A stretch of DNA of 37,575 bases, taken from Lachnospiraceae bacterium (GTDB lineage Bacteria > Bacillota > Clostridia > Lachnospirales > Lachnospiraceae). The stretch spans positions 1 to 37,575 of the forward strand of contig JAFYYN010000126.1 in assembly GCA_017557525.1 (NCBI GenBank), read 5' to 3'. Of the stretch, positions 153 to 13,805 are shown one piece after another. Each line of letters opens with the position of its first letter. Position 1 is the stretch's first letter. Position numbers and translations under genes: made by a program. Below the pieces are notes generated by a model. The model did not search any database, was not told the DNA's origin, and saw only the letters and a list, made by a program, of their open reading frames with translations.

Positions 153-830
153 ATGGCAAATTATGAATTAAAAAGTTTTCTCTGCCCTAGCTGCGGGGGA
201 CAGATCGATCCCGAGAGATTAGGCCAGGCAAAAGAGGGTAACGTTATAGTATGTCCTTACTGCGGGGTTTCCCTGAATATGAAGAAAACCCAGGATGCCC
301 ACGAGATAGGTTATGAGTATCAGCAGGGCGTGATAAAGGCTACAGAGGAATACAACGAGAAGAAGAGGAGAGAGTACGTCGCTGCCGTACGCAAGCAGCA
401 GATGATCGCTGCCGAACAGGAAAGACGAAGGATGGCGGCTGCAGAGGCAAGAAGGAAGAAGTTTGAGAAGAGATCGTGGGTGTCTGCGATAATCATCTAT
501 GTTATCCTGATAGGGCTGGCATACGTGCTTGCGCATGAGAGCATGGCGTGGACTTTCAGTGAAAGCCTTCATCTTCCAAAACCCTGGATTGTTGATGTAG
601 ACGGAGGGATACTGTGTCATATAGCAGGATTCTTTCTCTGGGGTTTTGTAAAGATAGGAGTCCTTCTGTCCCTGGTCAGTGCATTTGCTAATCTGGGGGA
701 AAAGACGATGGTGGCAATGCCGTGGCTTTATCTTTGGGAGCTGTTCTTCATGGTTGTTATTTTCAAGTCAATGAACGGATGCGGGCTTTTTGAGGCGTTT
801 GAGATACTGATAAAAGATTTGTTTGGTTAG
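153..830 (+). CDS. zinc-ribbon membrane protein
   Basis: The protein has 225 residues. A zinc ribbon opens it, with Cys pairs at 11/14 (CPSC) and 34/37 (CPYC). A charged, Arg/Lys/Glu-rich segment at about 60-107 is probably a coiled coil. Three hydrophobic segments follow at about 109-127, 150-177 and 188-206. The start is set by GAGGAGGG about 10 nt upstream. The layout (cytoplasmic zinc ribbon, helical linker, C-terminal membrane anchor) recurs in many uncharacterised Firmicutes proteins and gives no specific function. The next small membrane gene starts 13 nt after the stop, so the two are probably co-transcribed and may form one membrane complex; that last point is inference. Confidence 0.85.
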   Translation: MANYELKSFLCPSCGGQIDPERLGQAKEGNVIVCPYCGVSLNMKKTQDAHEIGYEYQQGVIKATEEYNEKKRREYVAAVRKQQMIAAEQERRRMAAAEARRKKFEKRSWVSAIIIYVILIGLAYVLAHESMAWTFSESLHLPKPWIVDVDGGILCHIAGFFLWGFVKIGVLLSLVSAFANLGEKTMVAMPWLYLWELFFMVVIFKSMNGCGLFEAFEILIKDLFG

Positions 831-843
831 GAAGGAAGGCATT

Positions 844-1086
844 ATGCAGGTCTTTGCAACATTCATCAGCCATATGACAGGAGAGAACGGGCTGCTTAGG
901 GCATTTATAATGCTGGTTTCTGCCTGCTCCATCCTGGCAGGCATGTGGCGCATGAAGGATTTTGCAAAAGAGGAACTGACCGGCTCCGGAGAGGAGATGG
1001 ATAAAAAGCACATACCGGATGTCCTGACGGGCGCGGCCCTTATATTCCTTGCTGTAGCGGCCATAGCGTTCTGCGGCGAGGCCTGA
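844..1086 (+). CDS. small two-helix membrane protein
   Basis: The product has 80 residues. The ATG at 844 is preceded by GGAAGG with good spacing; an in-frame TTG at 823 lies inside the previous gene and has no ribosome site of its own, so 844 is preferred. There are two hydrophobic segments, around residues 15-33 and 60-78, joined by a charged loop with two Glu-Glu pairs. I do not recognise a family. It lies just behind the zinc-ribbon membrane gene and ahead of a strong terminator, so the pair forms a short operon. The arrangement recalls small accessory membrane proteins of conjugative elements, but the sequence does not prove this. Confidence 0.75.
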   Translation: MQVFATFISHMTGENGLLRAFIMLVSACSILAGMWRMKDFAKEELTGSGEEMDKKHIPDVLTGAALIFLAVAAIAFCGEA

Positions 1087-1104
1087 CATGAGCGTGCTTG
1101 CATC

Positions 1105-1139
1105 GTGCAGTAGTACGGATAGGTACTGCTGCACTTTTT
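1105..1139 (+). terminator. Rho-independent terminator
   Basis: A 12-bp stem, GTGCAGTAGTAC with GTACTGCTGCAC (one G-U pair), closes on the loop GGATAG and is followed by TTTTT. It ends the two-gene membrane-protein operon. Confidence 0.85.
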
Positions 1140-1274
1140 ATATACCGGTCCGCCCCCACCAGCTTAACTTATGAATTCTTTTATGTTCTTCTTCCTTTTC
1201 TTCTTCCCGCCAACTTCAGGGGGAACGGGGCATATAACGGGGAGGCAGGACAGCAGGCGTGCCCGAATGCATTA

Positions 1275-1310
1275 ATACAGGGGTACATGTCCGTACTACT
1301 GTATTTTGTT
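1275..1310 (+). other. compound hairpin upstream of the recombinase-like gene
   Basis: ATACAG/CTGTAT forms an outer stem and GTAC/GTAC an inner stem, with TTTTGTT after it. It could be a weak terminator or a leader structure for the gene starting at 1367. Confidence 0.4.
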
Positions 1311-1366
1311 GATAAAGCATATGATACACACAGTTATAGTCACATACTGACAGGAGGGTGATGAGA

Positions 1367-2284
1367 ATGAAGACGGAATGCCTAAGGGAAATATACCCGG
1401 CTGAGACCGTGGAGCTTATGAAGAAATATCTTTCGGGAATGAGGGACTCCAGGGAAATATCCTCAAGGGTGAACACCTATGCGGATTTCTTCGCAGTGAC
1501 GGGAGAGGATCTTATATGTGCCGGGAGAGGGACGCTCCTGCGGTACCTGTCGGATCTTGAGTCACGGGTGGACAGGGGAAGCATGAAGCATTCGACTGCG
1601 CTCAAGAAGAGGAAGTTCATCGCGGCATTCCTTTCCTGGTGCGAGAAGGAGAAGGAGAGCGGGAACAGGCTGGTGCCTGACAGTTTCGCCAATCTGATGC
1701 TCACGATAAAGGCAGGGCCTGAAGATGACATAATTAGGCTGCAGGATATGCCGGACCTTACAGAGCTCGACAGGCTCTTCGGATACCTGAAGGAGAATGA
1801 CAGGCAGGTGCTGTGTGCTGTTGCCCTTGCCATAAAATGCCTGCTGAAGACTGGGGAGATAGCGGCTCTTAGGAATGACCAGATAGTGACCGATATGAAT
1901 GGGAAGATGTTCTTGCTGCCGGAGGGTTTCACCATGCCGGTGTCGGTCCCGGAAGACATATCGGGCATACTGGGCGAGACGGTCGCTGGCTCGGGGCAGA
2001 AAGGGTGGCTTTTCCCTTCGCCGGTTAAGAACGCACCGCTTAACTTGTCCAACATCCAGCGCAGGCTGTCAAAGGCTTGCGCCATGGCAGGCGTAAGGCG
2101 CATGACCCTTAATTCCTTAAGGAACATGGCGGCCGTCATGGCTGTTTCCGGCGGTGCGGATGCCGTTAAGCTGAATGATGACATGGGATACAGGTCGAGG
2201 ACGCACATCAGGCGGCTGACATCCCTGCCCCTGAAGTATTCCGACTCCGGGGAGAAGTATGTGCATCTAGTATATAGGACATGA
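1367..2284 (+). CDS. degenerate tyrosine-recombinase-fold protein
   Basis: The product has 305 residues and the two-domain layout of phage/Xer integrases: an N-terminal SAM-like core-binding region (about 10-100) and a C-terminal catalytic fold. The box I segment CLLKTGEIAALR matches the usual TG-x-R-x-x-E pattern, but the catalytic Arg is Lys (161). The box II HxxRH signature reads NSLRN (249-253), which keeps only the Arg. The later His/Trp position is Tyr275, and no Tyr stands about ten residues beyond it where the nucleophile should be; Tyr291 is further away. It is thus probably not an active recombinase. AGGAGG at 1352-1357 fits the ATG at 1367 best; GTG 1358 and ATG 1361 are too close. 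GC is high (about 62% in a 60-base sample). Confidence 0.8.
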   Translation: MKTECLREIYPAETVELMKKYLSGMRDSREISSRVNTYADFFAVTGEDLICAGRGTLLRYLSDLESRVDRGSMKHSTALKKRKFIAAFLSWCEKEKESGNRLVPDSFANLMLTIKAGPEDDIIRLQDMPDLTELDRLFGYLKENDRQVLCAVALAIKCLLKTGEIAALRNDQIVTDMNGKMFLLPEGFTMPVSVPEDISGILGETVAGSGQKGWLFPSPVKNAPLNLSNIQRRLSKACAMAGVRRMTLNSLRNMAAVMAVSGGADAVKLNDDMGYRSRTHIRRLTSLPLKYSDSGEKYVHLVYRT

Positions 2285-2533
2285 TTTTCCAAAAATGCGA
2301 GACGACCGGATTGGTGTGGTTGCTGTTTTGTGCTGAAATAGCAAGAAAGAAGCGGAATAAGGGTGTAAAACGGATATTTGGGAATGCTTTACCTGACTTT
2401 GGGTTATGGTAATGAAGTATCATATATTATGTTATAATATGTTATACAAAGTATTTGTAACTGTATTGCTTGTTAGCGTGCGTTCAAAAAAGGCTGAGGA
2501 TGCAGGGAAAAAGGAAGATAATTTTACGTAAAA

Positions 2534-2568
2534 AGATACGCCCCTAGTTATAGGAGCGTATCTCTTTT
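2534..2568. terminator. bidirectional Rho-independent terminator
   Basis: AGATACGC and GCGTATCT (2534-2541, 2556-2563) extend to a 13-bp stem with one mismatch and loop GTTA. T-runs flank it on both strands (CTTTTTG on +, TTTTTACG on -). On the - strand it closes the structured RNA candidate. Confidence 0.85.
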
Positions 2569-2575
2569 TGTTTTT

Positions 2576-2607
2576 CTTCAATCCACGCACCTCGTTAGAG
2601 GTGCGAC
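2576..2607 (-). repeat. solitary type I-C CRISPR-repeat-like sequence
   Basis: On the minus strand this 32-nt stretch begins GTCGCACC and ends GTGCGTGGATTGAAG, with a perfect 7-bp stem (GCACCTC/GAGGTGC). The start GTCGC, the short stem and the end GCGTGGATTGAA are the hallmarks of type I-C repeats. No second clear copy at spacer distance and no cas gene are present, so it is a single, possibly terminal or relic repeat. Confidence 0.6.
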
Positions 2608-2689
2608 TAAATCGCCAACGTAAGCGATTTAGACAACATATCAATCTGCACGTGTGCAGAATCGAAAGCAAATAATTTGCTTTCAACTG

Positions 2690-2718
2690 ATTATAACATT
2701 GTTTTTGAGTAAAAGCAA
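2690..2718 (-). promoter_or_regulatory. promoter of the structured RNA candidate
   Basis: Minus-strand -35 TTGCTT (2718-2713), 17-nt spacer, and extended -10 TGTTATAAT (hexamer at 2695-2690). Transcription would start near 2683, right at the first hairpin. Confidence 0.65.
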
Positions 2719-2927
2719 GGGACCAACTTAAAAAAATTTGAAAAAATACAACTTCAATGGGTTGTTTTGAACTTGGTCCTGTCAAAGTGTTTAACTCCCG
2801 CTCATGTACTCTAACGGAAGACAGTTTGTGAGAGGTTAGTTTAAGGTTGGCAAAGAAGTTAAACTGTGCCCTGGATGCGGATTATACGTCGTTATTTAGA
2901 AAGGAATGTGCAGAGCATCGAAAGAAG

Positions 2928-2956
2928 TGGACACTTTTCTCTTTTTGCGATATAAT
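2928..2956 (+). promoter_or_regulatory. sigma-A-type promoter of the Sel1-HEPN/WYL cassette
   Basis: -35 TGGACA (2928-2933), 17-nt spacer, perfect -10 TATAAT (2951-2956). The predicted start near 2963 leaves a leader of about 115 nt before the ATG at 3079. A 26-codon frame (ATG at 3021) lies in that leader and overlaps the start; whether it is translated is unclear. Confidence 0.75.
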
Positions 2957-3078
2957 ATCATATATGAAAGAGACGTTGTAATACTACATTTTAAGGATAC
3001 AGGGGAAAAATTATTTAGACATGCACATGATGTTTGATTTATCAATCAATGCTACATTTATATGGAGATTATACGAAT

Positions 3079-6000
3079 ATGACCAACATAAATATCGATG
3101 AACATTTTCAAGAAAAATTTGCGGAAATGTTCTCCAAAGAGGAATCCCCTCAAAAAGAAGTTTCGCCATTGATGAAAAAATTATTAGATAAGCAAAACCA
3201 AGTTGTATGCGAGGATATTTATAAAGACTATATTAATTCAGAACCTGCACAGAAGCTACAAGATGAAGTTTATGCTAAAGAGCGTTCTATTATTAAATGC
3301 AGAGATTATTACCGAAATCTTAGATGGGCAAAAGAAAGAGGTCTTGTTAACGATATCGAGGGGAAATTTTTTTCAATTAGAAAAAAGGAAAATTGTAAAA
3401 CTGTTATATATAGAATGTATCCGGCAATAGATAGTAAAAACAAAGTATCTTATCTTGAACTTGAGACTATTGTTAATTCTGTAGTAAAAAAAGAGAATGA
3501 GGAATTCCAGATTTTTTATATCGCTTTTCCAGATCCAAAAGAAACCTTAGTGGTTTTACATTTTTATCCGCAAAAGGGAGACATTTTTCTTAATATAGGA
3601 GAGCTATGGTATGATAAGGTGAAATTTAATAAGCGACTCTTTCCTGTATATAATGGAGAAATTGAAGGTCATCAGATTCATCATGAAGCATATTCTGAGG
3701 ACAAGACGAACGATGAAATATGGTATGACGCTTCTTCTGAATCACATACAATGATAGTTGATCCTTCAACAGGCAAACTTGTTAAAAGAGAATTTTATAC
3801 CGATGAAAATGGGAACATAAAGTGCCGTATAAAGTTGAAACTTAAAAAAAATTATTTTGTATTTCAAATAACGATAGGTGGAAATGAGCTTCCATACAGA
3901 GCTCTTACTGACCTAGAACTTGGCAGATTATATCGGAGGGGAATCTTTGGCTTTCCTCAAAATTATATTTTAGCGTTGAAACATTTAGAGAAACTTAATG
4001 ATGCAGACGCATCATATGAGATTGCCCACATATTCAGTGATTCAGAAGAATTCCGTGATGAGACAGAGGCTGATAAATATCTTAGTGATGCTGCACAAAG
4101 AGGGAATAGTGCTGCAAAGGTAGAATTAGCTTTAAAATATTATTTTAACGGTAAGACTGCTAAAGAGGAGATTGCTAGGCTCCTCAATGAAGCTGTGAAT
4201 AATAGATTTGCCCCAGCAATGTTTTTGGCAGGATATGGATATGAATTTGGAATATTTGTTGAACAGGACATAGAGAAGGCATTTGATCTATATTATAGAT
4301 CGGCAGAAAAGGGGTATATGCCTGCTCATCTGAGGTTGGCTCCAGATGATAAAATCGACAGCATTAAAGACCTATGGCAGCATTTCAGTAATAATCATGG
4401 AAAAGAAGCTGACCGGGCAAAATACTGTGTGGCTTGTGCATTGTACTATCGTAACGAGATTGACAGCAAAAGTTGGTCTGATGATATGATTGAAGGTGAT
4501 CAGAAAACAGCTGTAAAGATTTTTAAGGAATTATATGGGAAGGGTTTTGAGGAAACAGCTTATGATCTTTCATATGCATATGCATATGGTATTGGCATAG
4601 AGAAAGACAGAGAGAAGGCCTTAAAATATTATGAGAAGATTTTGTATGAGAACCCTGCATGTTATGAATATATACTTTTACTTGCCGATATCAAGGGTGA
4701 TGAGGAGCTGTGGAAATATTTTGATGTGCTTTTGAGGGCGGAAAAGTTTGATAAAACAGGGAATATATTATTAAATATAGGGAAATGTTATCTTGACAAG
4801 AGAACAGGACATTACGATGTTGACTGTGCAGAGGAATATTTTCTTAAATCAGCGGAAAAGGGAAAGATCAAGGCGTTTTCATATCTGTTAAAACTGTATC
4901 AAGAAGAAAATGTTATAAACGATGAAATAGAGCGTAAAAGAAAGATCCGGAAGGTGTGTGAAAAAGGTGCTGAACTTGGAAACAGTGATTGCAAGCTTTA
5001 TCTGGAAAACGAAAAGATAAATGAAGCAGTTAGTATGGAGTATATTAAAAACAAAGTAGATGAGGGAGTCAGCATTTCTAAAAGAAGTGAAACTACATTA
5101 AATGAAACAAGGACAGCAGTTGAGCAGATCGATAAGAGGCTTGATGTTATTACCAAGTATATCGTTCACGATTTGAAAGAATACATAGATAATGAGCGTT
5201 TAAAGCTCTCTAAAAATGTAGAAACAGACGACGAACCAAGCGTTAGCAAGTTCTCATATAGTGTTTCTGACCAGATTCATAAGAAAATCTCGCTTTCAGG
5301 GGATGAGATTGTAAAAAATGAGGAAGATGAACTAAGCCTGCTATTTGGTGATCTGTGGACATCGCTGTTGCCTGATTCACGTGCTTCACTTGTTTCGGCC
5401 AGTGTCATGCTGAAAAAGTGCATGGACATAACTATACCAAGTTTTGATTTTTCAGGAATCTGCATATGTGCAACATCGGCTCTGGAGATAGAGCTTAAAA
5501 GGGTATTTTTTGATGGCCTGGTATCATACATGAATCGTAATTATGGAGATGAGATCAGAAATAATACTGAAAAAATATATGACTATTGGCCGGAAAAGCT
5601 ACTTACTGTCTCAAGGAAAGACTATCTGAATGGTAACCACAAAGTAAAAATTGAAACATCTTTTACTATGGGCGCACTGCCGTTCTTATTTGGCGAAACA
5701 AGGACATTATCCAAGGAACCGCAGATACGTGAGTATCAACTCGCACAGGCTAAAAAGATGCAGGATATAATGAGAAGCTATTTAGCCGAGATTATTTCTG
5801 AAAGCTACACGGATGATCCTTACGGCAGCTTTTACGAACAGAAAGAGACGGATAAGAGCATAAACTGTAAAAACGGCTGTTTTGTCTGGAAGTGTGAAAA
5901 AATTAGAAACGACTATAGAAACAAAGCAGCACATGTTAATGTCATGTCAGAGGAAGAAGCAACAGGATGTTATCAGGCTATAGTGAACAAGCCTGACATA

Positions 6001-6084
6001 TATATGTTTAATTCTGAAATAACCGGGTTAATGATTGAACTTTTTAGCAAGATAGACAAGGAAAGACTAAAGAAATTTATATAA
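3079..6084 (+). CDS. Sel1-repeat protein with C-terminal HEPN-like domain
   Basis: This is a 1001-residue soluble protein. Residues 1-290 are an unassigned N-terminal region. Residues 296-655 are a helical-repeat solenoid of degenerate Sel1/TPR-like units (Ala-rich pairs, AYGIGIEKDREKALKYYEK, YFLKSAEKG). Residues 653-712 look like a coiled coil. The last 250 residues are helical, with SALEIELKRVFF near 795 and RNKAAH at 947-952. R-x4-H is the catalytic signature of HEPN RNases, and its place near the end of a four-helix region fits; the HEPN call is inference from motif and layout. I choose ATG 3079 (GGAG 11 nt upstream) over ATG 3049 and TTG 3034, which lack ribosome sites. The N-terminal half is very AT-rich. 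It leads a cassette with two WYL genes and has no terminator behind it. Confidence 0.7.
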   Translation: MTNINIDEHFQEKFAEMFSKEESPQKEVSPLMKKLLDKQNQVVCEDIYKDYINSEPAQKLQDEVYAKERSIIKCRDYYRNLRWAKERGLVNDIEGKFFSIRKKENCKTVIYRMYPAIDSKNKVSYLELETIVNSVVKKENEEFQIFYIAFPDPKETLVVLHFYPQKGDIFLNIGELWYDKVKFNKRLFPVYNGEIEGHQIHHEAYSEDKTNDEIWYDASSESHTMIVDPSTGKLVKREFYTDENGNIKCRIKLKLKKNYFVFQITIGGNELPYRALTDLELGRLYRRGIFGFPQNYILALKHLEKLNDADASYEIAHIFSDSEEFRDETEADKYLSDAAQRGNSAAKVELALKYYFNGKTAKEEIARLLNEAVNNRFAPAMFLAGYGYEFGIFVEQDIEKAFDLYYRSAEKGYMPAHLRLAPDDKIDSIKDLWQHFSNNHGKEADRAKYCVACALYYRNEIDSKSWSDDMIEGDQKTAVKIFKELYGKGFEETAYDLSYAYAYGIGIEKDREKALKYYEKILYENPACYEYILLLADIKGDEELWKYFDVLLRAEKFDKTGNILLNIGKCYLDKRTGHYDVDCAEEYFLKSAEKGKIKAFSYLLKLYQEENVINDEIERKRKIRKVCEKGAELGNSDCKLYLENEKINEAVSMEYIKNKVDEGVSISKRSETTLNETRTAVEQIDKRLDVITKYIVHDLKEYIDNERLKLSKNVETDDEPSVSKFSYSVSDQIHKKISLSGDEIVKNEEDELSLLFGDLWTSLLPDSRASLVSASVMLKKCMDITIPSFDFSGICICATSALEIELKRVFFDGLVSYMNRNYGDEIRNNTEKIYDYWPEKLLTVSRKDYLNGNHKVKIETSFTMGALPFLFGETRTLSKEPQIREYQLAQAKKMQDIMRSYLAEIISESYTDDPYGSFYEQKETDKSINCKNGCFVWKCEKIRNDYRNKAAHVNVMSEEEATGCYQAIVNKPDIYMFNSEITGLMIELFSKIDKERLKKFI

Positions 6085-6193
6085 CATGAATGTTTCCATA
6101 GGGCACGTCAAAACTATCGCGAAGATTCCAATACAGGAGATTACAAAAACAGGTACAAAGTCGATGCGGAAATGGAACTAAAAGGGCGCTAAG
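6085..6193 (+). other. gap with a possible protein relic
   Basis: Between the Sel1-HEPN stop and the first WYL gene, the frame ending in TAA at 6190-6192 reads like real protein (NYREDSNTGDYKNRYKVDAE) but has no start codon and begins right after the upstream stop. A second frame (ATG 6086 to TAA 6181) would give 31 residues without a ribosome site. The first could be the tail of a decayed gene. No terminator is present, so transcription probably runs through. Confidence 0.3.
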
Positions 6194-7471
6194 ATGGAAA
6201 AAGTAGAAAAGCGAAGAAGAAGGATCCTTGAAATTTTACGTGATAATCCTGAAAAAACACAGCAACAGGTATGTGATGAAATAGGATGCAGCCTGCGTAC
6301 AATAAAGAGTGATTATGTAGAACTGAAAAAGCAGGGGTACAAATTAAATACACTAAGAGACAGATCATCGCTGGATGATGTATCAGATTTTAAAATGGTA
6401 TCTGCAAATGATAATGCGATCAGGGCAATCTTGCTGCTCTGCGGACTGACAGCCGGAGAGAACAGCATAGATGAGATTTCAGAAGGAAAGTTTGACGAAT
6501 ATATAGCTTCAAGGTCTACAGTATTCCGGTCGATCAAACCTTACCTGGCGGATAACCATCTTATTGAAAAAAGGCACGGATACATTACTCCTTCAAGCAT
6601 ATATATGACAAGCCTTCCAGAAGACTATTCCGATATTCTGAAATTTGCCGCGCACTGCCTTTCACAAAAGGAACACGGAGGGCAGGAAGTATATGAACAG
6701 GCATTAAGGTATCTGTATGGAAGGAACCTTGTTTTCAGATCAAAGCAGGACTATATGCTTACAAAAATTCCATTCTATATGCAGACCCTTGAGAATAACC
6801 TTGCAGATATGAAGCCGGTTTCCTTTATTTACAAGGGAAAGCCCATAAACTTCTTTTTTCTTGGATTCGTAGCGTATTCAATCGACAAGGATATTATATA
6901 CCTTATAGGAAGAACAAAGACTACAAGGACGGATTATAAGGTATTTAAGGCAGACGAGTTAGACTGGGATACTATAAGAATAACAGAAAATAGCCTTTTC
7001 GAGAAAACCATCAAGGACCATGGGAAAAATGATATTAATAAAATGAAGTGTTTTTTCAGAAAACTTCAGGCAGAAATGTTTGATGTGGTAGAAGATTCCT
7101 TGCAGCCGGTCAAGGTGAGGATCCGTTATTCTGCCGAATCAGATGATGATCTAAGACAGTTGTATTTAAGCAGGAAAAGGCAATGGGAATCATTTGATAT
7201 GGATATGGCATTTATTAGGGTTAGCGAAGAGGAAAAGAAACATAATGTTCCGAGAATAAAGTACCTTGACCGAGACAAGAATGAACTCAAAGGAGAAAGC
7301 ATCCATAAGTCTGTGGAATACATAGAATATTCTGATGAAATACGAGGCATATCACATTTTTCTAATTATCTTCGCAGATTTGGAGATGCTGTTGAAGTTA
7401 TCGGGAATGATAAACTAAAGGCTGCCATGGTAAGCGGAGCAGTGCGCGCACTTGAACACTATAAAGAATGA
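6194..7471 (+). CDS. HTH-WYL domain transcriptional regulator
   Basis: The product has 425 residues. The first 60 form a winged-helix/HTH domain (RRRRILEILRDNPEKTQQQV, then a recognition-type helix SLRTIKSDYVELKKQGY). A linker region follows, then a WYL domain around 215-265 (PVSFIYKGKP, IIYLIGRTKTTR, YKVFKADEL). The C-terminal part resembles the WCX extension (HFSNYLRRFGDAVEVIGNDK). WYL proteins bind nucleic-acid or nucleotide ligands and often control defence loci (BrxR and CapW are known examples). AAGGG about 8 nt upstream sets the start. It lies 109 nt after the HEPN gene and 9 nt before a second WYL gene, so it probably regulates or assists this cassette. Confidence 0.85.
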   Translation: MEKVEKRRRRILEILRDNPEKTQQQVCDEIGCSLRTIKSDYVELKKQGYKLNTLRDRSSLDDVSDFKMVSANDNAIRAILLLCGLTAGENSIDEISEGKFDEYIASRSTVFRSIKPYLADNHLIEKRHGYITPSSIYMTSLPEDYSDILKFAAHCLSQKEHGGQEVYEQALRYLYGRNLVFRSKQDYMLTKIPFYMQTLENNLADMKPVSFIYKGKPINFFFLGFVAYSIDKDIIYLIGRTKTTRTDYKVFKADELDWDTIRITENSLFEKTIKDHGKNDINKMKCFFRKLQAEMFDVVEDSLQPVKVRIRYSAESDDDLRQLYLSRKRQWESFDMDMAFIRVSEEEKKHNVPRIKYLDRDKNELKGESIHKSVEYIEYSDEIRGISHFSNYLRRFGDAVEVIGNDKLKAAMVSGAVRALEHYKE

Positions 7472-7480
7472 GGAGAGAAG

Positions 7481-8470
7481 ATGACGGCCAGAGAACGTTT
7501 TAAAGATATCAGGGATTTTTCATTACGAATTACATTTCAATTGTTAGATATCCTAATTACAGAGCCTCATAAATACGACCTGGAAGATCTGTCAATTTAT
7601 TTGGGATGTAATGTCGGTTTGCTATGTACTGCCATAACGGAATGTCTATATCAAAACATCTTTGAATTTTACATAGGAAATACCAGAATAACCCCAGATA
7701 ACTGCATTAGCGTCTTAAAATATGATAACGGTGAAAAACTGGCTGTTGTCTCCAGAATCGCTTTTACTGATAAAACCGGGTTTAAGAAATATAGGGTTAT
7801 GAAGGAAAAATTTGAAGGGACGATATCAGAAAAGAAAAATTTTGAAAAGATAGTAGCTTTCAATTCATACCGGGTAGATAAGAGCCTAAACAGGATTGGG
7901 GTAGATCCATCAGTCATGCAGTCCCTTTCTGAGGGGAAAACATCAGAATATAAATCATCTATAACCGGTTCTCGCTTCTTTCCAATTGCAGTTTATACAA
8001 GCCTGCAATATCGACGTGAATATTTTGTAGCACTGGAAAAAGGGTATCAGTTAAAGTTTTATCCCTGTGAGGATTCTGTAAAGTGTGACAACACAACAAT
8101 GGGAAAGAAGAATGAAAAACCCTTTTCTGAAATATGTGATAACACAGATGTAATACCCGATGCTTTGGAAAAGCTTAAGTATATTTGGGGCCCTCATGAT
8201 ATGTTTCTTGACGAGGAACAGTTTTCAGTATCTGCTGTAATCTATGATAAAAGCTGCCTCGGCAAGATTCTGCATGATATCTCTAATAAACCATACAAAT
8301 TGAAAGATAATAAAGATGGGACTTATAGTCTAAAAATGGAGATTTTAGGCTATGATGCTTTCAGGATATGGGTATTAAGTTATGGGAGCAGTATAGAAAT
8401 AAAAGAACCAGTTAGACTAAGAAAAGAACTTAGAGAAGTTTATGAAAAAATAAAAAATGGAAATGCTTGA
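7481..8470 (+). CDS. second WYL-domain protein
   Basis: The product has 329 residues. Residues 1-65 look like a winged-helix domain (DIRDFSLRITFQLLDILI, then DLEDLSIYLGCNVGLLCTAI). The middle carries a WYL-like core (FPIAVYTSLQYRREYFVALE at about 167-186, with YFVA at the W-Y-L position). The end matches the WCX domain (YSLKMEILGYDAFRIWVLSY, then IEIKEPVRLRKELREVYEKI). GAGGAGAG precedes the ATG, 9 nt after the stop of the first WYL gene, so the two are translated from one transcript. Two different WYL proteins side by side suggest a heteromeric regulator or a sensor/effector pair; this is inference. A terminator follows at 8542. Confidence 0.8.
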   Translation: MTARERFKDIRDFSLRITFQLLDILITEPHKYDLEDLSIYLGCNVGLLCTAITECLYQNIFEFYIGNTRITPDNCISVLKYDNGEKLAVVSRIAFTDKTGFKKYRVMKEKFEGTISEKKNFEKIVAFNSYRVDKSLNRIGVDPSVMQSLSEGKTSEYKSSITGSRFFPIAVYTSLQYRREYFVALEKGYQLKFYPCEDSVKCDNTTMGKKNEKPFSEICDNTDVIPDALEKLKYIWGPHDMFLDEEQFSVSAVIYDKSCLGKILHDISNKPYKLKDNKDGTYSLKMEILGYDAFRIWVLSYGSSIEIKEPVRLRKELREVYEKIKNGNA

Positions 8471-8541
8471 AATCTTTGTTTTGTAAGGTTTCTGAAGCAA
8501 ATGGCAAAACCAATTAGATACCCGCAGTTTTGTATTTTGAT

Positions 8542-8566
8542 AAGACAGCTCATGGCTGTCTTTTTT
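8542..8566 (+). terminator. Rho-independent terminator of the WYL cassette
   Basis: AAGACAGC and GCTGTCTT form an 8-bp stem over TCATG and run into TTTTTT. It ends the HEPN/WYL unit about 70 nt after the last stop. Confidence 0.85.
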
Positions 8567-8634
8567 GCCGAAGTTGGCTTACAGCTTGCCGAATATGTGA
8601 TAAGCATAAATAAATACAGCTATCTGAAGTTTTT

Positions 8635-8682
8635 AAAAGTGCAATTATATGACACTTATAGGTGAACTATAATGGCACTTTT
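8635..8682. promoter_or_regulatory. inverted repeat enclosing a -10-like TATAAT
   Basis: AAAAGTGC (8635-8642) and GCACTTTT (8675-8682) are perfect inverted repeats. TATAAT lies inside at 8668-8673; no good -35 is seen at 17 nt. It may be an operator or promoter for the secreted amidase gene. The rest of 8471-8813 shows no gene. Confidence 0.35.
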
Positions 8683-8885
8683 CTTATTGAAAAAACATTG
8701 ATAAAGTAAACTCATCAAAGGAAATCCTAAAACAAACGGCCGGTCAGGATAATTCCTAAAAGCAGAATAAGGTTATATTACTTATGAGACTTGCATTCAG
8801 AAGGAGGTAGCCAATGATCACCACTAAAAAAACACGCGATAAAGATAACACAATGAATGATAGCTTATATCGAGGAGGATTGATT

Positions 8886-10394
8886 ATGAAGAAGAGAATA
8901 GTAGCAGTATTGATGGTTATTATCATGTCAGCAGGATTCATGCCTTTATTTGTTACATCAGAAAAGGTTCAGGCAGCAACGAACTATAATCGGGATAAGG
9001 CTCTTGAATATGCAGCAGCACATTGGAACGATGGTAAGGGGCTTTGTGCAGAGTATGTCTCTAACTGTATCAAAGCAGGCGGGATAAGCAGTTCTGTAGC
9101 ATGGTCCAAGGGATGCACAACCCTTATAACACAGCTGAAGAAATCAGGGCTTGGAAGCGCACATGAGATTTCATTGAAAAGTGACATGAGCATTAAGGCT
9201 TCAGATTATGAAGGCATACTATCTTCTGGAGATATCATATTCTATTACTGTGATGGCTGTGTTTACCGAGATGGGAAGCCCTATATTCACGCAGTTTTAT
9301 ATGCCGGAACTGACTCTAATGGCTATGCTAGGTGCTATAGCCATAATAACGCAAACAATGCAAGCAAGAGATATTATTATAGCAAGAAATGTTATGACTG
9401 CGGGACTGCAATAAAGAAAGCGTATGTATTTCACTTTAATACAGAGGATAGCCAGCCTGAAAAACCTAAAAGACAGTATGTACGTACAATACAGGATGGG
9501 TGGTACTGGATTGAAACTGCATGTGATCCCAGTGGCAATAGTGTCCTAAACATATGTGGGAACAGCATGGAGAATGGCGGAAATTTAATAATCTATCCAT
9601 TTGAGAAAACGGGGAATGAACTTTTCTATGTGAAATACGAAGGTGATGGATGCTACAGCATAATGAGCTACAGTTCTGGGAAATATATACATATTGCAGA
9701 TAACCACAGTGTGAATGAAAATACCCACCAGTGGCAAGGTCTTCACAAAAATAGTATGTGGTTTATATATGAAACAGGAGACGGATATTATTATCTTGAA
9801 AACAAAAACAACTCTGGATTTCTTGACCTTAGCAATGCAGATACTACCCCCACTAATAACGTATGGACATACGAATTTAATGCTAGCAAGGCTCAAAAAT
9901 GGAAGCTCGTCCCGTATGAAAAAAAGGGTCAGGAGACTACTGCGAATATCCGTCAGCTTATAGCTGATGGATGGTACTGGATTGCGACAGCATGTGATTC
10001 CAGGGGTAACAGTGTTCTTAATATATGTGGAAACAGCATGGAGAATGGCGGTAACTTAATAATTTATCCGTTTGAGAGAACAGGGAATGAACTTTTCTAT
10101 GTGAAATATGAAGGTAATGGCTATTATAGCATGATGAGCTACAGTTCTGGAAAATATATACATATTGCAGATAACCACAGTGTAAATGAAAACACCCATC
10201 AGTGGCAAGGCCTTCATGATAATAGTATGTGGTTCATATATGAAGCGGGAGACGGATATTATTATCTTGAAAACAAAAACAACTCTGGATTTCTTGACCT
10301 TAGCAATGCAGATACTACCCCTACGAATAACGTATGGACATATGAATATAATGCTAGCAAGGCTCAAAAATGGAAGTTCATTCCATATAACTAG
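8886..10394 (+). CDS. secreted amidase/NlpC-like protein with two ricin-type lectin domains
   Basis: The product has 502 residues. A clear signal peptide covers 1-31 (MKKR, hydrophobic core, VQAA). Residues 33-185 resemble the putative amidase (Amidase_6) branch of the NlpC/P60 fold: YNRDKALEYAA, then Cys54 in GLCAEYVSNC, His135 in YIHAVLYAG and His153 in CYSHNN as a likely Cys-His-His set. Two ricin-B-type carbohydrate-binding domains follow (about 200-340 and 357-502), each ending in a QKW motif. It probably acts outside the cell on wall peptide while bound to sugar. The ATG at 8886 has GAGGAGG 7 nt upstream. An in-frame ATG at 8814 also has AAGGAGG, and would add 24 residues before the signal peptide. 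Confidence 0.85.
   Translation: MKKRIVAVLMVIIMSAGFMPLFVTSEKVQAATNYNRDKALEYAAAHWNDGKGLCAEYVSNCIKAGGISSSVAWSKGCTTLITQLKKSGLGSAHEISLKSDMSIKASDYEGILSSGDIIFYYCDGCVYRDGKPYIHAVLYAGTDSNGYARCYSHNNANNASKRYYYSKKCYDCGTAIKKAYVFHFNTEDSQPEKPKRQYVRTIQDGWYWIETACDPSGNSVLNICGNSMENGGNLIIYPFEKTGNELFYVKYEGDGCYSIMSYSSGKYIHIADNHSVNENTHQWQGLHKNSMWFIYETGDGYYYLENKNNSGFLDLSNADTTPTNNVWTYEFNASKAQKWKLVPYEKKGQETTANIRQLIADGWYWIATACDSRGNSVLNICGNSMENGGNLIIYPFERTGNELFYVKYEGNGYYSMMSYSSGKYIHIADNHSVNENTHQWQGLHDNSMWFIYEAGDGYYYLENKNNSGFLDLSNADTTPTNNVWTYEYNASKAQKWKFIPYN
9501..9904 (+). repeat. intragenic tandem duplication, copy 1 (lectin domain)
   Basis: About 404 bases that match 9972-10375 almost base for base at a constant offset of 471 (157 codons). 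The copies differ mainly at scattered, often silent positions, so the duplication looks recent or kept uniform. Confidence 0.9.
9972..10375 (+). repeat. intragenic tandem duplication, copy 2 (lectin domain)
   Basis: Second copy of the lectin-domain repeat, in frame with copy 1 and without insertions or deletions that I can see. Confidence 0.9.
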
Positions 10395-10518
10395 GCATAT
10401 TTTAACATGATCTATTGTATTGATATGTATGAATAATAAAGAATATGATCTATTATTTATCATCAAAAATAAGATAGCATAGAACAAAACATTAACGTTT
10501 TTGACAGAGGAGGAAATT

Positions 10519-11106
10519 ATGGTCAATACCAGCGTACCATTCAAAACAGCTAACGGGACTTCATGGGTCCCGTTAGAATCCTGGCTTATACCTGAAGGAA
10601 GGATATTTATTAAGGGTGACATAACACAGGATGCTGCAAGCGAATTTGTTCAGAAACTTATGTACCTAAAAAATGAAAAACCAGAAAAAAAGATAAGGAT
10701 TTATATTGATTCTAAAGGGGGCGAGGTCAATGCCGGATTGATCATTTATGATGCTATAAAAGCCATAAGAGCAGAAGCAGATATTATCTGCATTGGTATG
10801 GCAGCGTCAATGGCTGCTATACTTCTTGCAGGCGGACAAAAGGGCAGGCGGTTCATTCTTCCTCATTCGAAAGTCATGATACATGAACCGCTTATTGCCG
10901 GGGGAGTGGGAGGAAGCGCTTCAACGATACAGCGGACCGCTGAATCAATTCTTGAAACCAAGAGGGTATCCGTTGATCTTTTAGCCTCAGATACAGGCAG
11001 GAGCTCTAAAGAAATTGAAAAAGCAATCTCATTTGATAATTACATGAATGCCGGGGAGGCAATCGCGTTTGGCATATGCGACGAGATAATCACGAATTTT
11101 GTATAA
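10519..11106 (+). CDS. ClpP-like serine protease
   Basis: The product has 195 residues, the normal ClpP length. The catalytic triad is visible at classical spacing: Ser97 in GMAASMAA, His122 in VMIHEPL, and Asp173 in SFDNYMNAGEA. IDSKGGEVNAG and the AGEAIAFGICDEI end also match ClpP. ClpP forms double heptamers that degrade proteins fed by Clp ATPases. GAGGAGG at 10507-10513 sets ATG 10519; TTG 10501 is less likely. No Clp ATPase gene is close. The neighbours (secreted amidase, VirD4-like ATPase) make this an accessory paralogue of the kind found on phages and integrative elements rather than the housekeeping clpP; that judgement is inference. Confidence 0.92.
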   Translation: MVNTSVPFKTANGTSWVPLESWLIPEGRIFIKGDITQDAASEFVQKLMYLKNEKPEKKIRIYIDSKGGEVNAGLIIYDAIKAIRAEADIICIGMAASMAAILLAGGQKGRRFILPHSKVMIHEPLIAGGVGGSASTIQRTAESILETKRVSVDLLASDTGRSSKEIEKAISFDNYMNAGEAIAFGICDEIITNFV

Positions 11107-11123
11107 AAGGAACGAGGTGGGTT

Positions 11124-11465
11124 ATGAAGGATGAGGAATTAAGCCAGTATATACTGACTGTGGATGAGAATTATTACAGGTTCTGGAATAATGGATCAAA
11201 GAACTTTCATCCTATCGCTGAATATGAAATCCAAAAGGGCCTTGATATCCCAGGTGTTATCAGCTGGCTCAGGATTTGCCGATTGTTGTATTCTTCTGAA
11301 GGAGTGATGAGGGGGATAGTATTGTCCTACAGGGATGGCGAACATAGGAGACGGACAGTAACGGTTTCTGTTAATAATGAGAAGAAACTCAGGGTAACTT
11401 CGGAATGCCGTGAAATCTCAGATTTCATATTCAGGATTGCCATAAAAAAGAATGATGTTAAATAG
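11124..11465 (+). CDS. hypothetical protein
   Basis: The product has 113 residues and no signal peptide or membrane segment. It is rich in charged residues, with a run of short strands toward the end (GIVLSYRDG, RRTVTVSVNNEKKLRVTS) that suggests a small beta fold. AGGTGG directly upstream supports ATG 11124, 17 nt after the ClpP-like stop, so the two are probably co-translated. An earlier in-frame ATG (11076) lies inside the ClpP gene and is less likely. I do not recognise a family. Its place between a ClpP-like protease and a VirD4-like ATPase hints at an element-encoded accessory role. Confidence 0.75.
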   Translation: MKDEELSQYILTVDENYYRFWNNGSKNFHPIAEYEIQKGLDIPGVISWLRICRLLYSSEGVMRGIVLSYRDGEHRRRTVTVSVNNEKKLRVTSECREISDFIFRIAIKKNDVK

Positions 11466-11554
11466 TGATCGGTTTCCATATTAGGTAGTTAACGAGATAT
11501 TCAGGGGAAAGGAGAAAATCCAAACGTCGTACTATATTTGGGTTACACAGTTTT

Positions 11555-12808
11555 ATGAACAGAGTTATTTTAGGCGAGGGCTGTTACCTAGAAGGCGGTA
11601 TAGGCAAAACCAGGCCAAATGATAATGTATTTGTTGTTGGATCCAGCGGGTCTGGAAAATCAACATCAACAGAACTGCCAACCGAACTTGAGAATGACAA
11701 TACCAGCACAATACTTACACAGAGCAAACCCGAGGAAGGTAGAAAACTGGCAAATTATATTAGGAAAAAAGGTAAAAGGGTAGAAATACTTGACTTTGAC
11801 ATCCCATCAAGAAGTACAGTAACATTTGATCCTCTGCAGTATGTCGAATCATACCAGGATGTTGAAAATCTTGCTAGGAATATTGTCATGGCAGATCCAA
11901 ACGCAATGATCACAAAAGACTTTTACTGGAATGATGGCGCGATAAATCTGATATATGCACTGATGCTTGCTACAATGATTATGATTGATAATGCCACTAT
12001 GCGTGATGTTCTTGAGTTGTTTGATTCTTTTACTATAAAAGAAGATGGCAAGGGCATTACAACTTCATTGGATGAACTCTTTGATAATATTGAAATGATA
12101 GAAGGAGCCTGTCCGGCAGTTAATGCCTTTAAGGACTACACCATGCTTCCATACACAACTGCTGGATGCCAAAGAGATTCAATTGCTCGTGCTTTGAGGA
12201 AAGTTTTTCCGGAATCAATACGGCAGATGATGCGTGGTGAAAAGCTTATTGATTTTGAGGCTTTTGCGAATGAAAAGACTTTATTAATGATAATTACCTC
12301 GCCCGTAAAAACATCATCATATTTTTTTGTAAACCTTATGTTTAGCACCGCGATCAAACAGCTCTTGGAGTTTTCCCAGAGATGTGAAGGGCAAAGATTA
12401 CCGCACCCGGTAAGACTTGTGTTTGATGATTTTGCCTGCGGGGCAAGGATAAATGATTTCCCGAAGCATATATCTGTATTTAGGTCAGCCGGGATCAGTG
12501 CCATGATGCTTGTTCAGAGCGAGAGCCAGCTCCGTGAGATGTATACGGAAGCGGAAAGCGAAACCATAATCAATAATTGCTCTGTATATGTGTATTTCCC
12601 GGGAGGCATGGATCTTATTACATGCAAACATATATCACAGCGTCTGGACGTTCCACTTACAGATATCTTATACGCACCGATGGGGGATGTGATCGTCATG
12701 CAGTCCAGCAGGAAACCTGTTTGGACAAAAAGATATGATACATTTAACAGCAGGGAGTACAAGGAATTTATCAGGGCGACAGAAAACCATAAAGCATCTG
12801 AAAGATAA
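11555..12808 (+). CDS. VirD4/TraG-like ATPase lacking membrane segments
   Basis: The product has 417 residues. The Walker A motif is GSSGSGKST (29-37) and the Walker B-like segment is VRLVFDDFACG (FDDF at 290-293). The C-terminal part (INNCSVYVYFPGGMDLITCK, then HISQRLDVPL) matches the TraG/TraD C-terminal region of type IV coupling proteins, which pump relaxase-bound DNA in conjugation. Coupling proteins usually carry two N-terminal transmembrane helices and run to 550-700 residues; here the protein starts right before the nucleotide-binding domain. The start has no convincing ribosome site (AAGGAG lies about 40 nt upstream), which hints at loss of the 5' end. No relaxase or other conjugation gene is visible nearby. 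Confidence 0.8.
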   Translation: MNRVILGEGCYLEGGIGKTRPNDNVFVVGSSGSGKSTSTELPTELENDNTSTILTQSKPEEGRKLANYIRKKGKRVEILDFDIPSRSTVTFDPLQYVESYQDVENLARNIVMADPNAMITKDFYWNDGAINLIYALMLATMIMIDNATMRDVLELFDSFTIKEDGKGITTSLDELFDNIEMIEGACPAVNAFKDYTMLPYTTAGCQRDSIARALRKVFPESIRQMMRGEKLIDFEAFANEKTLLMIITSPVKTSSYFFVNLMFSTAIKQLLEFSQRCEGQRLPHPVRLVFDDFACGARINDFPKHISVFRSAGISAMMLVQSESQLREMYTEAESETIINNCSVYVYFPGGMDLITCKHISQRLDVPLTDILYAPMGDVIVMQSSRKPVWTKRYDTFNSREYKEFIRATENHKASER

Positions 12809-12868
12809 ATGCTGTTATTGTTTGCTATTTTTGAATGAAAATAATTCAAATAGGAGGATAAGGAGAAG

Positions 12869-13033
12869 ATGAACAGACATGAAGAATTTGTCAGGGAATT
12901 AAGGAAATATTATTATAAAATGGAAATGCTGGCAACCCAGGTAAAAAAGAATAAGCCCAAAAAGGAGGACAAGCTTACAGAATCGGAGCTGTTTTCTAAT
13001 TTCGTTGATTTGTTTGATGATGATTCAGAATAG
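12869..13033 (+). CDS. small charged protein
   Basis: The product has 54 residues with a strong ribosome site (AAGGAG, 12860-12865). It opens with a helix rich in Arg, Glu and Tyr, passes through a Lys-rich stretch (KKNKPKKED), and ends in an acidic tail (DLFDDDSE). No family recognised. It lies between the VirD4-like ATPase and a one-helix membrane protein, all closely spaced, so it is probably part of that transcript. Confidence 0.65.
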   Translation: MNRHEEFVRELRKYYYKMEMLATQVKKNKPKKEDKLTESELFSNFVDLFDDDSE

Positions 13034-13068
13034 CAGTTAAACACCTTAAAGGTATGGGAGGAGCGGTT

Positions 13069-13227
13069 ATGAGCAATAATAAAGACCAGAAAACAAGCTT
13101 GTTATGCATAGGTATTGGACTTGGAATGTGTATTGCCGTTATATTATTGTTTTCATTTTGGTATGTATATGTCGATATGGCTGCCAACGAAGAATGGATT
13201 GATTACCACTGCGGAGATTATATTTAA
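13069..13227 (+). CDS. small single-pass membrane protein
   Basis: The product has 52 residues with GGAG upstream of ATG 13069. One hydrophobic segment covers residues 11-37, preceded by a short charged N-terminus and followed by an acidic tail ending HCGDYI. No family recognised. It follows the small charged protein at 35 nt and precedes the SprT-like gene at 20 nt. It could anchor a partner such as the soluble VirD4-like ATPase, but that is speculation. Confidence 0.6.
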   Translation: MSNNKDQKTSLLCIGIGLGMCIAVILLFSFWYVYVDMAANEEWIDYHCGDYI

Positions 13228-13247
13228 TATATCGGAGATGATGTGTA

Positions 13248-13805
13248 ATGAAAAAAGTATGGGATGAAGATGCGATCCGTAAAGAACTGGCAAGGCTAGA
13301 TGGGATCACGGGTTTAAATGGGGCGGAACTGCCCATAAGATTTACTGATGCACAGTGTGTTATTGGGTGTTATCACCTAAATAATGGGGAGCGATTCAGT
13401 TTTTCAAGAATCTATTTCATGGATCCGGAATGGGCAGAAGAATCAGCATTAGATACTATCCGTCACGAATATGCACATTATATGGATTACGCGATATACG
13501 GTAATGTTGGTCATGGCTGGACATGGAAAAAGTGCTGTTCCGTGGTCGCCGCATGCCCGGTCAGGCTATATAATTCCTGGAAAAATGATTATTATAACAA
13601 AAAGCAAACCGAAAAAGAACAAAAGCTGCTGGGGATGCATGATTACAAGGCTGGGGACTACATAATACATCCCAAATATGGCAAAGGTATGATAACGACA
13701 ATTGCAGGTGTGGAAATCATGAAGACCATCCAGGTAGAATTTGAAACCGCAGGTGTAAGGAAGCTTAGTCTGGCATGGGTGAGTGACAACTGCATAAAAT
13801 TGTGA
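13248..13805 (+). CDS. SprT-like zinc metalloprotein
   Basis: The product has 185 residues. The zinc-binding site is clear: HEYAH at 73-77, with a third His (89) in GNVGHGWTW, the spacing seen in SprT/Spartan-like proteins. The C-terminal third (GDYIIHPKYGKGMITTI and beyond) resembles the small beta module at the end of PcrA/UvrD helicases, where GD-x-V-x-H-x-x-(F/Y)G-x-G binds RNA polymerase. The combination suggests a DNA- or transcription-associated peptidase; the protease activity is inferred from the motif. GGAGATG precedes the start. It belongs to the same + strand run as the VirD4-like ATPase. Confidence 0.85.
   Translation: MKKVWDEDAIRKELARLDGITGLNGAELPIRFTDAQCVIGCYHLNNGERFSFSRIYFMDPEWAEESALDTIRHEYAHYMDYAIYGNVGHGWTWKKCCSVVAACPVRLYNSWKNDYYNKKQTEKEQKLLGMHDYKAGDYIIHPKYGKGMITTIAGVEIMKTIQVEFETAGVRKLSLAWVSDNCIKL

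Follow-up and report, generated by a model that had tools for sequence, protein, structure and literature searches.

What does a protein that joins Sel1 repeats to an HEPN domain do in the company of two different WYL proteins? The question is raised by three genes in a window of 37,575 nucleotides (nt), the whole stretch analysed here (forward strand of contig JAFYYN010000126.1, assembly GCA_017557525.1), from a Lachnospiraceae bacterium whose genome comprises 3.93 Mb in 196 contigs and is 92.5% complete. The three-gene cassette that an earlier note had proposed from this sequence consists of three intact open reading frames (ORFs), all on the + strand: P0001 (3079..6084, 1001 amino acids, or 1016 in its longest version with a TTG start at 3034), P0002 (6194..7471, 425 amino acids) and P0003 (7481..8470, 329 amino acids). 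P0001 and P0002 are 109 nt apart, and the proposed 9 nt between the stop of P0002 (7471) and the start of P0003 (7481) are confirmed. We give about an even chance to the reading that this is a single-effector HEPN RNase cassette of the abortive-infection type under the control of a PafBC-like pair of WYL proteins.

The C-terminal part of P0001 (residues ~740-1001; 5296..6081, +) was delimited as an HEPN-like RNase domain by an AlphaFold2 model, fold comparison and alignment A5. The predicted model has the all-alpha HEPN fold. A second-look structural alignment of this model placed RnlA first and Csm6 next, both of them HEPN RNases, although the Foldseek search itself returned no significant match; identity between RnlA and the domain is 10-12% over the aligned part. 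RNKAAH (residues 947-952; 5917..5934, +) is the only R-x4-6-H motif in P0001, with R947 and H952 as the predicted catalytic residues, and a motif of the form R[NDH]xxxH arose in 53 of 5000 shuffles of residues 740-1001. In alignment A5, all ten rows covering the motif have RN.AAH, a conservation which is partly by construction because the motif was one of two scan patterns. None of the named Pfam HEPN families matched P0001 at cut-off (weak matches only, in one or two members), and profile searches of solved structures with alignments A2 and A5 returned unrelated or coiled-coil chains. The domain looks like an HEPN family for which Pfam has no model that matches at cut-off. The HEPN signature named in the earlier note is supported by fold and by conservation, and the C-terminus of P0001 is probably an HEPN RNase with conserved R and H.

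The R and H are also kept in seven relatives collected without the motif pattern; since the motif was known when their matches were judged, the seven of seven was not counted blind. A search with residues 640-1001 matched 17 of 397 family genomes at an E-value (E) of 0.1, from which the window's own genome (G000), G326 and G171 were kept, the latter two carrying the motif (RNQAAH and RNPAAH) on quite different N-termini. Nineteen loci were motif-scanned after this search. Of these, L033 (G326) and L034 (G171) were retained; L036, L038 and L044 had a chance-looking motif match in some frame; L035, L037, L039, L041, L042, L043, L047 and L048 were set aside as other proteins on reading, and L040, L045, L046, L049, L050 and L051 were set aside unread. 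A profile search of 348 family genomes, eight with matches, added G151 (RRKAAH) and G149 (RNKCCH), while G101, G067 and G014 were removed as unrelated proteins on reading. The same kind of search in 166 genomes of the order, three with matches, added G526 (RNCSAH) and G544 (RNMTAH), and Priestia megaterium (RNKVAH) came from a protein search of plasmids. The matched stretches lie outside the motif in G326, G171, G151, G149 and G526, and reach it in G544 and Priestia. P0001 as sole query found no matches in genome_contigs, and a scan of the same collection with two patterns, one of them the motif, gave nine same-family HEPN loci, including the already known L089 (G326:C74) and L091 (G171:C2). 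The best match to P0001 among the nine is L095 from an uncultured Clostridium (38% identity over residues 681-990). The HEPN gene of one relative, L097 (163-1061, +), runs over two frames close to the end of a contig and is therefore broken or misassembled.

Ahead of the HEPN-like domain, P0001 consists of an N-terminal and middle region, Sel1 repeats and a coiled-coil-like region, in that order. The Sel1 region (residues ~279-564, limits approximate; 3913..4770, +) bears out the earlier assignment with a match to Pfam PF08238 at E 8.8e-18 (64.5 bits against a cut-off of 30.7; three stretches, the best at 378-413). This is the sole Pfam match above cut-off in P0001, and phrog_8741 matches at 279-420. 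The long helical, coiled-coil-like region (residues 640-739; 4996..5295, +) corresponds to helices 14-72 and 80-99 of the AlphaFold2 model. The module before the repeats (residues ~58-280; 3250..3918, +) is common to a protein of genome G122, which carries it behind a SMEK domain (SMEK E 4.9e-33); pairwise blastp aligned residues 58-300 of P0001 with it at 22% identity over 249 positions (E 5e-11). Among 299 family genomes searched with P0001, 28 matched, its own included. G122 is the only other genome with a match before residue 212, and the remaining 26 match within 212-664. The G122 gene (L003, G122:C97, 820-3781, +) encodes a SMEK-middle-Sel1 protein, a sister architecture to P0001, and the gene after it has a sub-threshold match to the Mrr nuclease (E 0.0013).

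Modules are exchanged around the HEPN domain in its relatives too. It stands behind an SF1 helicase region matching Mokosh models in G149, behind a type I specificity-like region in L094, behind a PDC-M09A-like region in L093 (Schwartzia succinivorans) and, in L089, behind a region with a sub-threshold nSTAND match (E 8.3e-4). The L093 HEPN gene lies downstream of ZorA2, ZorB2 and ZorE2, with a 1505-amino-acid UvrD-like protein and a 226-amino-acid ORF between, and the annotation of the Priestia record lists AAA ATPase, UvrD-helicase and HNH genes near the HEPN gene. In L095 the HEPN gene follows kinase and PP2C genes; the first ORF of this locus aligned with the Cas13a of genome G004, described below, at blastp E 0.001 over the first 73 residues, and had no PADLOC match.

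This architecture bears on whether the cassette might be a toxin-antitoxin-like unit, with P0001 as a toxin neutralised by one or both WYL proteins and with stabilisation of a carrier element as its main effect. RnlA, the best fold match, is called a toxin in its entry title, and integrase and VirD4-type genes are situated nearby. However, P0001 is large and multi-domain, with N-termini that are exchangeable among its relatives, unlike compact toxins, and WYL proteins appear in the accessible portions of the literature as regulators or RNase accessories rather than as antitoxins. We consider such a unit improbable.

The same neighbourhood had been described as holding a coupling-protein remnant beside a compositionally distinct cassette, and neither description holds. 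Of the 442 positions in its model, the VirD4-type coupling protein spans 20-372 and is nearly whole by that measure. Guanine plus cytosine (GC) content is 35.5% in P0001, 38.5% in P0002 and 34.9% in P0003 against 39.7% in the window, so that the cassette is only slightly AT-richer, and 60-base stretches of at most 22% GC are rarer in it (0.4%) than in the whole window (1.2%). The compositional outlier is the integrase gene upstream of the cassette (54.2% GC). A compositional island is ruled out by this comparison. P0001 had no relatives in viral_contigs or phages, and its matches in plasmids fell only within residues 275-663, in 11 plasmid records. No matches were found for P0002 in plasmids or viral_contigs, for P0003 in plasmids, for the HEPN domain of G326 in plasmids, for that of L093 in plasmids or phages, or for the short WYL protein of G004 in plasmids. 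In viral_contigs, no relative could be confirmed from HEPN alignment A1, and the HEPN domain of L094 was matched in one Priestia megaterium plasmid.

The description of genes 2 and 3 as two WYL proteins holds in full for the former and in part for the latter. P0002 has the helix-turn-helix (HTH), WYL and WCX parts of WYL regulators, the last weakly: it matches HTH_24 at 23.0 bits (cut-off 21.9), the PADLOC WYL profile at E 3.2e-7 over 195-418 and Pfam WCX at 0.053, below cut-off. P0003 matches Pfam WCX (E 2.4e-7; 31.4 bits against 23.9) and no HTH or WYL-barrel profile; it meets the PADLOC WYL profile at positions 112-161 of 162 only, and the WYL barrel itself is therefore unmatched. Neither protein found a WYL structure among solved structures. 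P0003 matched in 10 and P0002 in 6 of the 299 family genomes, own genome included, four of the P0002 matches being HTH-only (G038, G120, G133 and G270). Among the nine other loci from the P0003 search, four have a further overlapping or adjoining WYL ORF (G207, G197, G004 and G074; in G074 there are three WYL ORFs), and one (L058) has no WYL match. Five pairs were compared, those of the window, G207, G197, G004 and L093 (found via its HEPN domain), with G074 left out. Leave-one-out profiles put nine of the ten members in the right group, first or second, with P0002 at 30.4 bits with first members against 19.5 with second, and P0003 at 39.5 with second against 8.3 with first. From this placement, the long first and short second members look like two lineages kept in order, and both proteins of the window group with other WYL-pair members.

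Who, then, do such pairs live with? In G004 (L105, G004:C54, 1273-10155, -), Cas13a, a 746-amino-acid protein without Pfam or PADLOC match, a long WYL gene and a short WYL gene follow one another on one strand; with every ORF taken from its first possible start, neighbouring ORFs share 4 nt. The Cas13a matches in PADLOC at E 7.6e-161 and has the motifs RNDSFH and RNYIEH, and six copies of a 28-mer are present on the contig. A review of type VI systems lists, in the part available, no small accessory protein for Cas13a (PMC8209922). In G207 (L083, G207:C8, 5923-16926), the pair is convergent with a gene for an HEPN_Swt1 protein (E 7.4e-23), 43 nt away. Two C5 methylases and a DUF4420 protein come next, the locus also has two proteins that Pfam does not match, and it looks like a methylase-based defence island. 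In Schwartzia (L093), the pair, whose WYL nature rests on PADLOC, is convergent with the HEPN gene and ~1 kb past it, with an ORF between that is HNH-like by eye. No HEPN neighbour was recognised for the G197 pair (L104) from reading ORF starts. Overall, four of the five pairs are near an HEPN RNase, one of these being the window and one found via HEPN; of the three found via WYL outside the window it is two, G074 (L106), whose contig ends ~1 kb past the WYL ORFs, being undecidable. The sample is small, and the pattern is worth a census rather than a statistic. The parallel with Cas13 drawn in the earlier note is nevertheless borne out by these wider neighbourhoods. A single WYL gene was also seen in L107 (G087:C4, 8868-14032, -), beside a TIR-LRR protein and a RelA/SpoT-RyR-HD protein.

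Several observations weigh against a cassette run by a PafBC-like pair. The exact Sel1-HEPN, WYL, WYL triad occurs only in the window across everything searched, and the pair is absent from eight of the nine same-family HEPN loci (128 ORFs over all nine, small-sample profiles), several of which end at contig edges. The ninth is L093, where the pair lies in the fetched flanks; the WYL profiles used contain this pair, so its recovery is by construction. Against two lineages kept in order, the misplaced one of the ten is the first L093 member, which scores -2.0 bits with first members and 3.9 bits with second ones, and at E 0.01 blastp matched neither P0002 nor P0003 to the L093 pair. By phmmer, P0002 is slightly closer to the second G207 member (9.5e-9) than to the first (3e-8). 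The predicted structure of P0003 was too poor for use, and a palindrome search for a WYL operator at the promoter gave nothing outstanding. On whether the genes travel together the result is mixed: WYL pairs lie beside other HEPN RNases (L083, L105), and the exact triad was found in the window alone.

The uniqueness of the triad and the eight loci without a pair, together with the 109-nt gap and the G197 pair, would also suit neighbours without joint function, with an HEPN/Sel1 gene of a generic kind ahead of a WYL pair that is unrelated to it and serves other promoters. However, all three genes are on one strand, no terminator-like site is listed between genes 1 and 2 (by a scan which also missed the hairpin at 8542), and pairs neighbour HEPN genes in L083, L093 and L105. 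Mere adjacency is in our judgement unlikely. A 31-codon ORF (6086-6181, +), for which there is no evidence of translation, takes up most of the 109 nt between genes 1 and 2.

The signals said to enclose the three genes are in part supported. A promoter-like site, TGGACA-17-TATAAT (2928..2956, +), has 11 of 12 consensus matches, but 19 such sites were found in 2250-8850 against 23.9 (sd 5.0) in shuffles; without an excess the site is promoter-like by consensus only. At the other end, a terminator-like hairpin with a T-run (8542..8566, +) has a z-score of -3.2 but was missed by a separate terminator scan, which listed 2303-2322 and 5670-5685, the second within P0001. Ribosome-site-like sequences were noted by eye before gene 1 (GGAG) and gene 3 (GAGGAGA). 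Past the hairpin, the gene at 8814-10394 encodes a ricin-lectin-type protein and contains two 300-base direct copies (9495-10265, +) that are 88% alike.

With a PafBC-like pair in control, the cassette might work as follows. P0001 would be an HEPN endoribonuclease held off until its N-terminal/Sel1 part, a putative protein-binding scaffold present on the SMEK protein too, meets a signal of a phage or rival element. The coiled coil could then unite HEPN domains, so that a composite site with R947 and H952 cuts RNA and leads to dormancy or death. P0002 and P0003 would be the two halves of a PafBC-like WYL heterodimer; bound to the operon promoter near 2928, it would set the dose of the RNase, and it may respond to single-stranded nucleic acid produced in infection.

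Instead of acting at the promoter, the pair might bind single-stranded RNA or DNA and target the RNase itself, either stimulating or restraining its HEPN domain in the manner of WYL1 with Cas13d. In favour, the window and G004 both have the pair after the HEPN RNase on the same strand. In the portions of the papers available, RspWYL1 is an interaction partner of Cas13d that binds single-stranded RNA (PMC6547453), and RfxCas13d has a WYL gene pair close by (PMC9712115). However, the HTH match of P0002 favours DNA binding, WYL1 is described as a homodimer with ribbon-helix-helix motifs (PMC6547453), and the L083 and L093 pairs are on the strand opposite to the HEPN gene. Direct action appears to us rather unlikely.

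For the structured RNA upstream, which had been counted with the cassette, no link to it was found. The - strand at 2530-2705 has four hairpins and a terminator-like stem, with folding far more stable than in shuffles (z-score -9.1). No Rfam family reached its gathering score in the window, and a permissive scan of 2300-3200 gave only sub-threshold matches. One hairpin (2576-2607, -) is repeat-like, solitary and single in the window, and we take it to resemble a lone CRISPR repeat of type I-C. A second copy of its 17-base core with fewer than three mismatches was not found in its own genome, nor was a Csd1 gene; 179 other family genomes contained no copy of the repeat at one mismatch, and viral_contigs gave no exact pattern match. 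Solitary repeats that act as RNA anti-CRISPRs have been described, in the part of the source available (PMC10651486). No CRISPR array was found among the listed 20 of 24 direct-repeat families in 800-13500; no Cas13 model matches P0001, and no Cas13a was found in its own genome. Among ten window proteins, PADLOC-DB 2.0.0 gave WYL for P0002 and P0003, 0.016 to SIR2 for P0001 and weak matches of other proteins to LmuB (6.8e-5), PDC-S10 (4.9e-5) and mad8 (3.5e-4). Of the overall interpretation in the earlier note, the cassette, the HEPN motif and the Cas13 parallel remain, but not the arguments from composition, remnants and RNA.

The occurrence of the WYL pair beside Cas13a and other RNA-cutting defence genes suggests a reusable control unit. 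More tentatively, the pair may be a transferable cassette that senses infection-made single-stranded nucleic acid and gates any collateral HEPN RNase it accompanies: Cas13a in G004, the methylase/HEPN_Swt1 island in G207, the gene next to Zorya II in Schwartzia and the Sel1-HEPN protein in the window. If so, one regulator would be common to CRISPR and non-CRISPR RNase immunity, and the pair could be used as bait for further RNase defence systems. HEPN RNases can kill or silence their own cell, so how they are restrained is an open question, which would become testable with a single regulator family if one pair controls the Cas13a, HEPN_Swt1 and Sel1-HEPN loci.

How does the cassette compare with known systems? 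The C-terminal domain of P0001 has its best fold match in RnlA (RNase LS) of the RnlAB system, an HEPN endoribonuclease that is not known to have a Sel1 region or WYL genes. A 2013 survey, in the passages available, describes DUF4145 fused to Sel1, AbiU2 in an operon with a Sel1 gene and LA2681 with TPR (PMC3710099), so that the HEPN-Sel1 theme is already known. P0001 shares with these proteins an HEPN domain and a repeat scaffold in conflict loci, but belongs to no HEPN Pfam family at cut-off, and the passages on them are without a WYL pair. The CnuE effectors of CoCoNuT, in the accessible part of their description, likewise use HEPN as an exchangeable effector in a system with coiled coils (PMC11090510), whereas no McrB/McrC-type protein was found among the window proteins scanned. 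Type VI-D Cas13d with WYL1 is likewise an HEPN RNase with WYL gene(s) alongside; unlike it, P0001 has a single R-x4-6-H, no Cas13 model match and no repeat array seen beside the cassette, and WYL1 for its part carries ribbon-helix-helix motifs (PMC6547453). In literature of partial coverage, no description was found that puts a WYL pair together with Cas13a or a Sel1-HEPN protein. Defence loci with WYL regulators are known from the accessible parts of reports on CapW in CBASS (PMC9122588) and BrxR in BREX (PMC9122601). CapW is a single regulator gene, whereas the cassette has two different WYL genes. BrxR is a single regulator gene as well. The PafBC of actinobacteria, two different WYL-WCX proteins acting together and described in the available text as a heterodimer activated by single-stranded DNA (PMC11804915), resembles the long and short pair of the cassette; PafBC runs a DNA damage regulon, the likeness is at the WYL/WCX level, and the heterodimer of the cassette is a proposed one. 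An HEPN effector under WYL control is already known as a theme, and the shared WYL pair is the part that could matter more widely.

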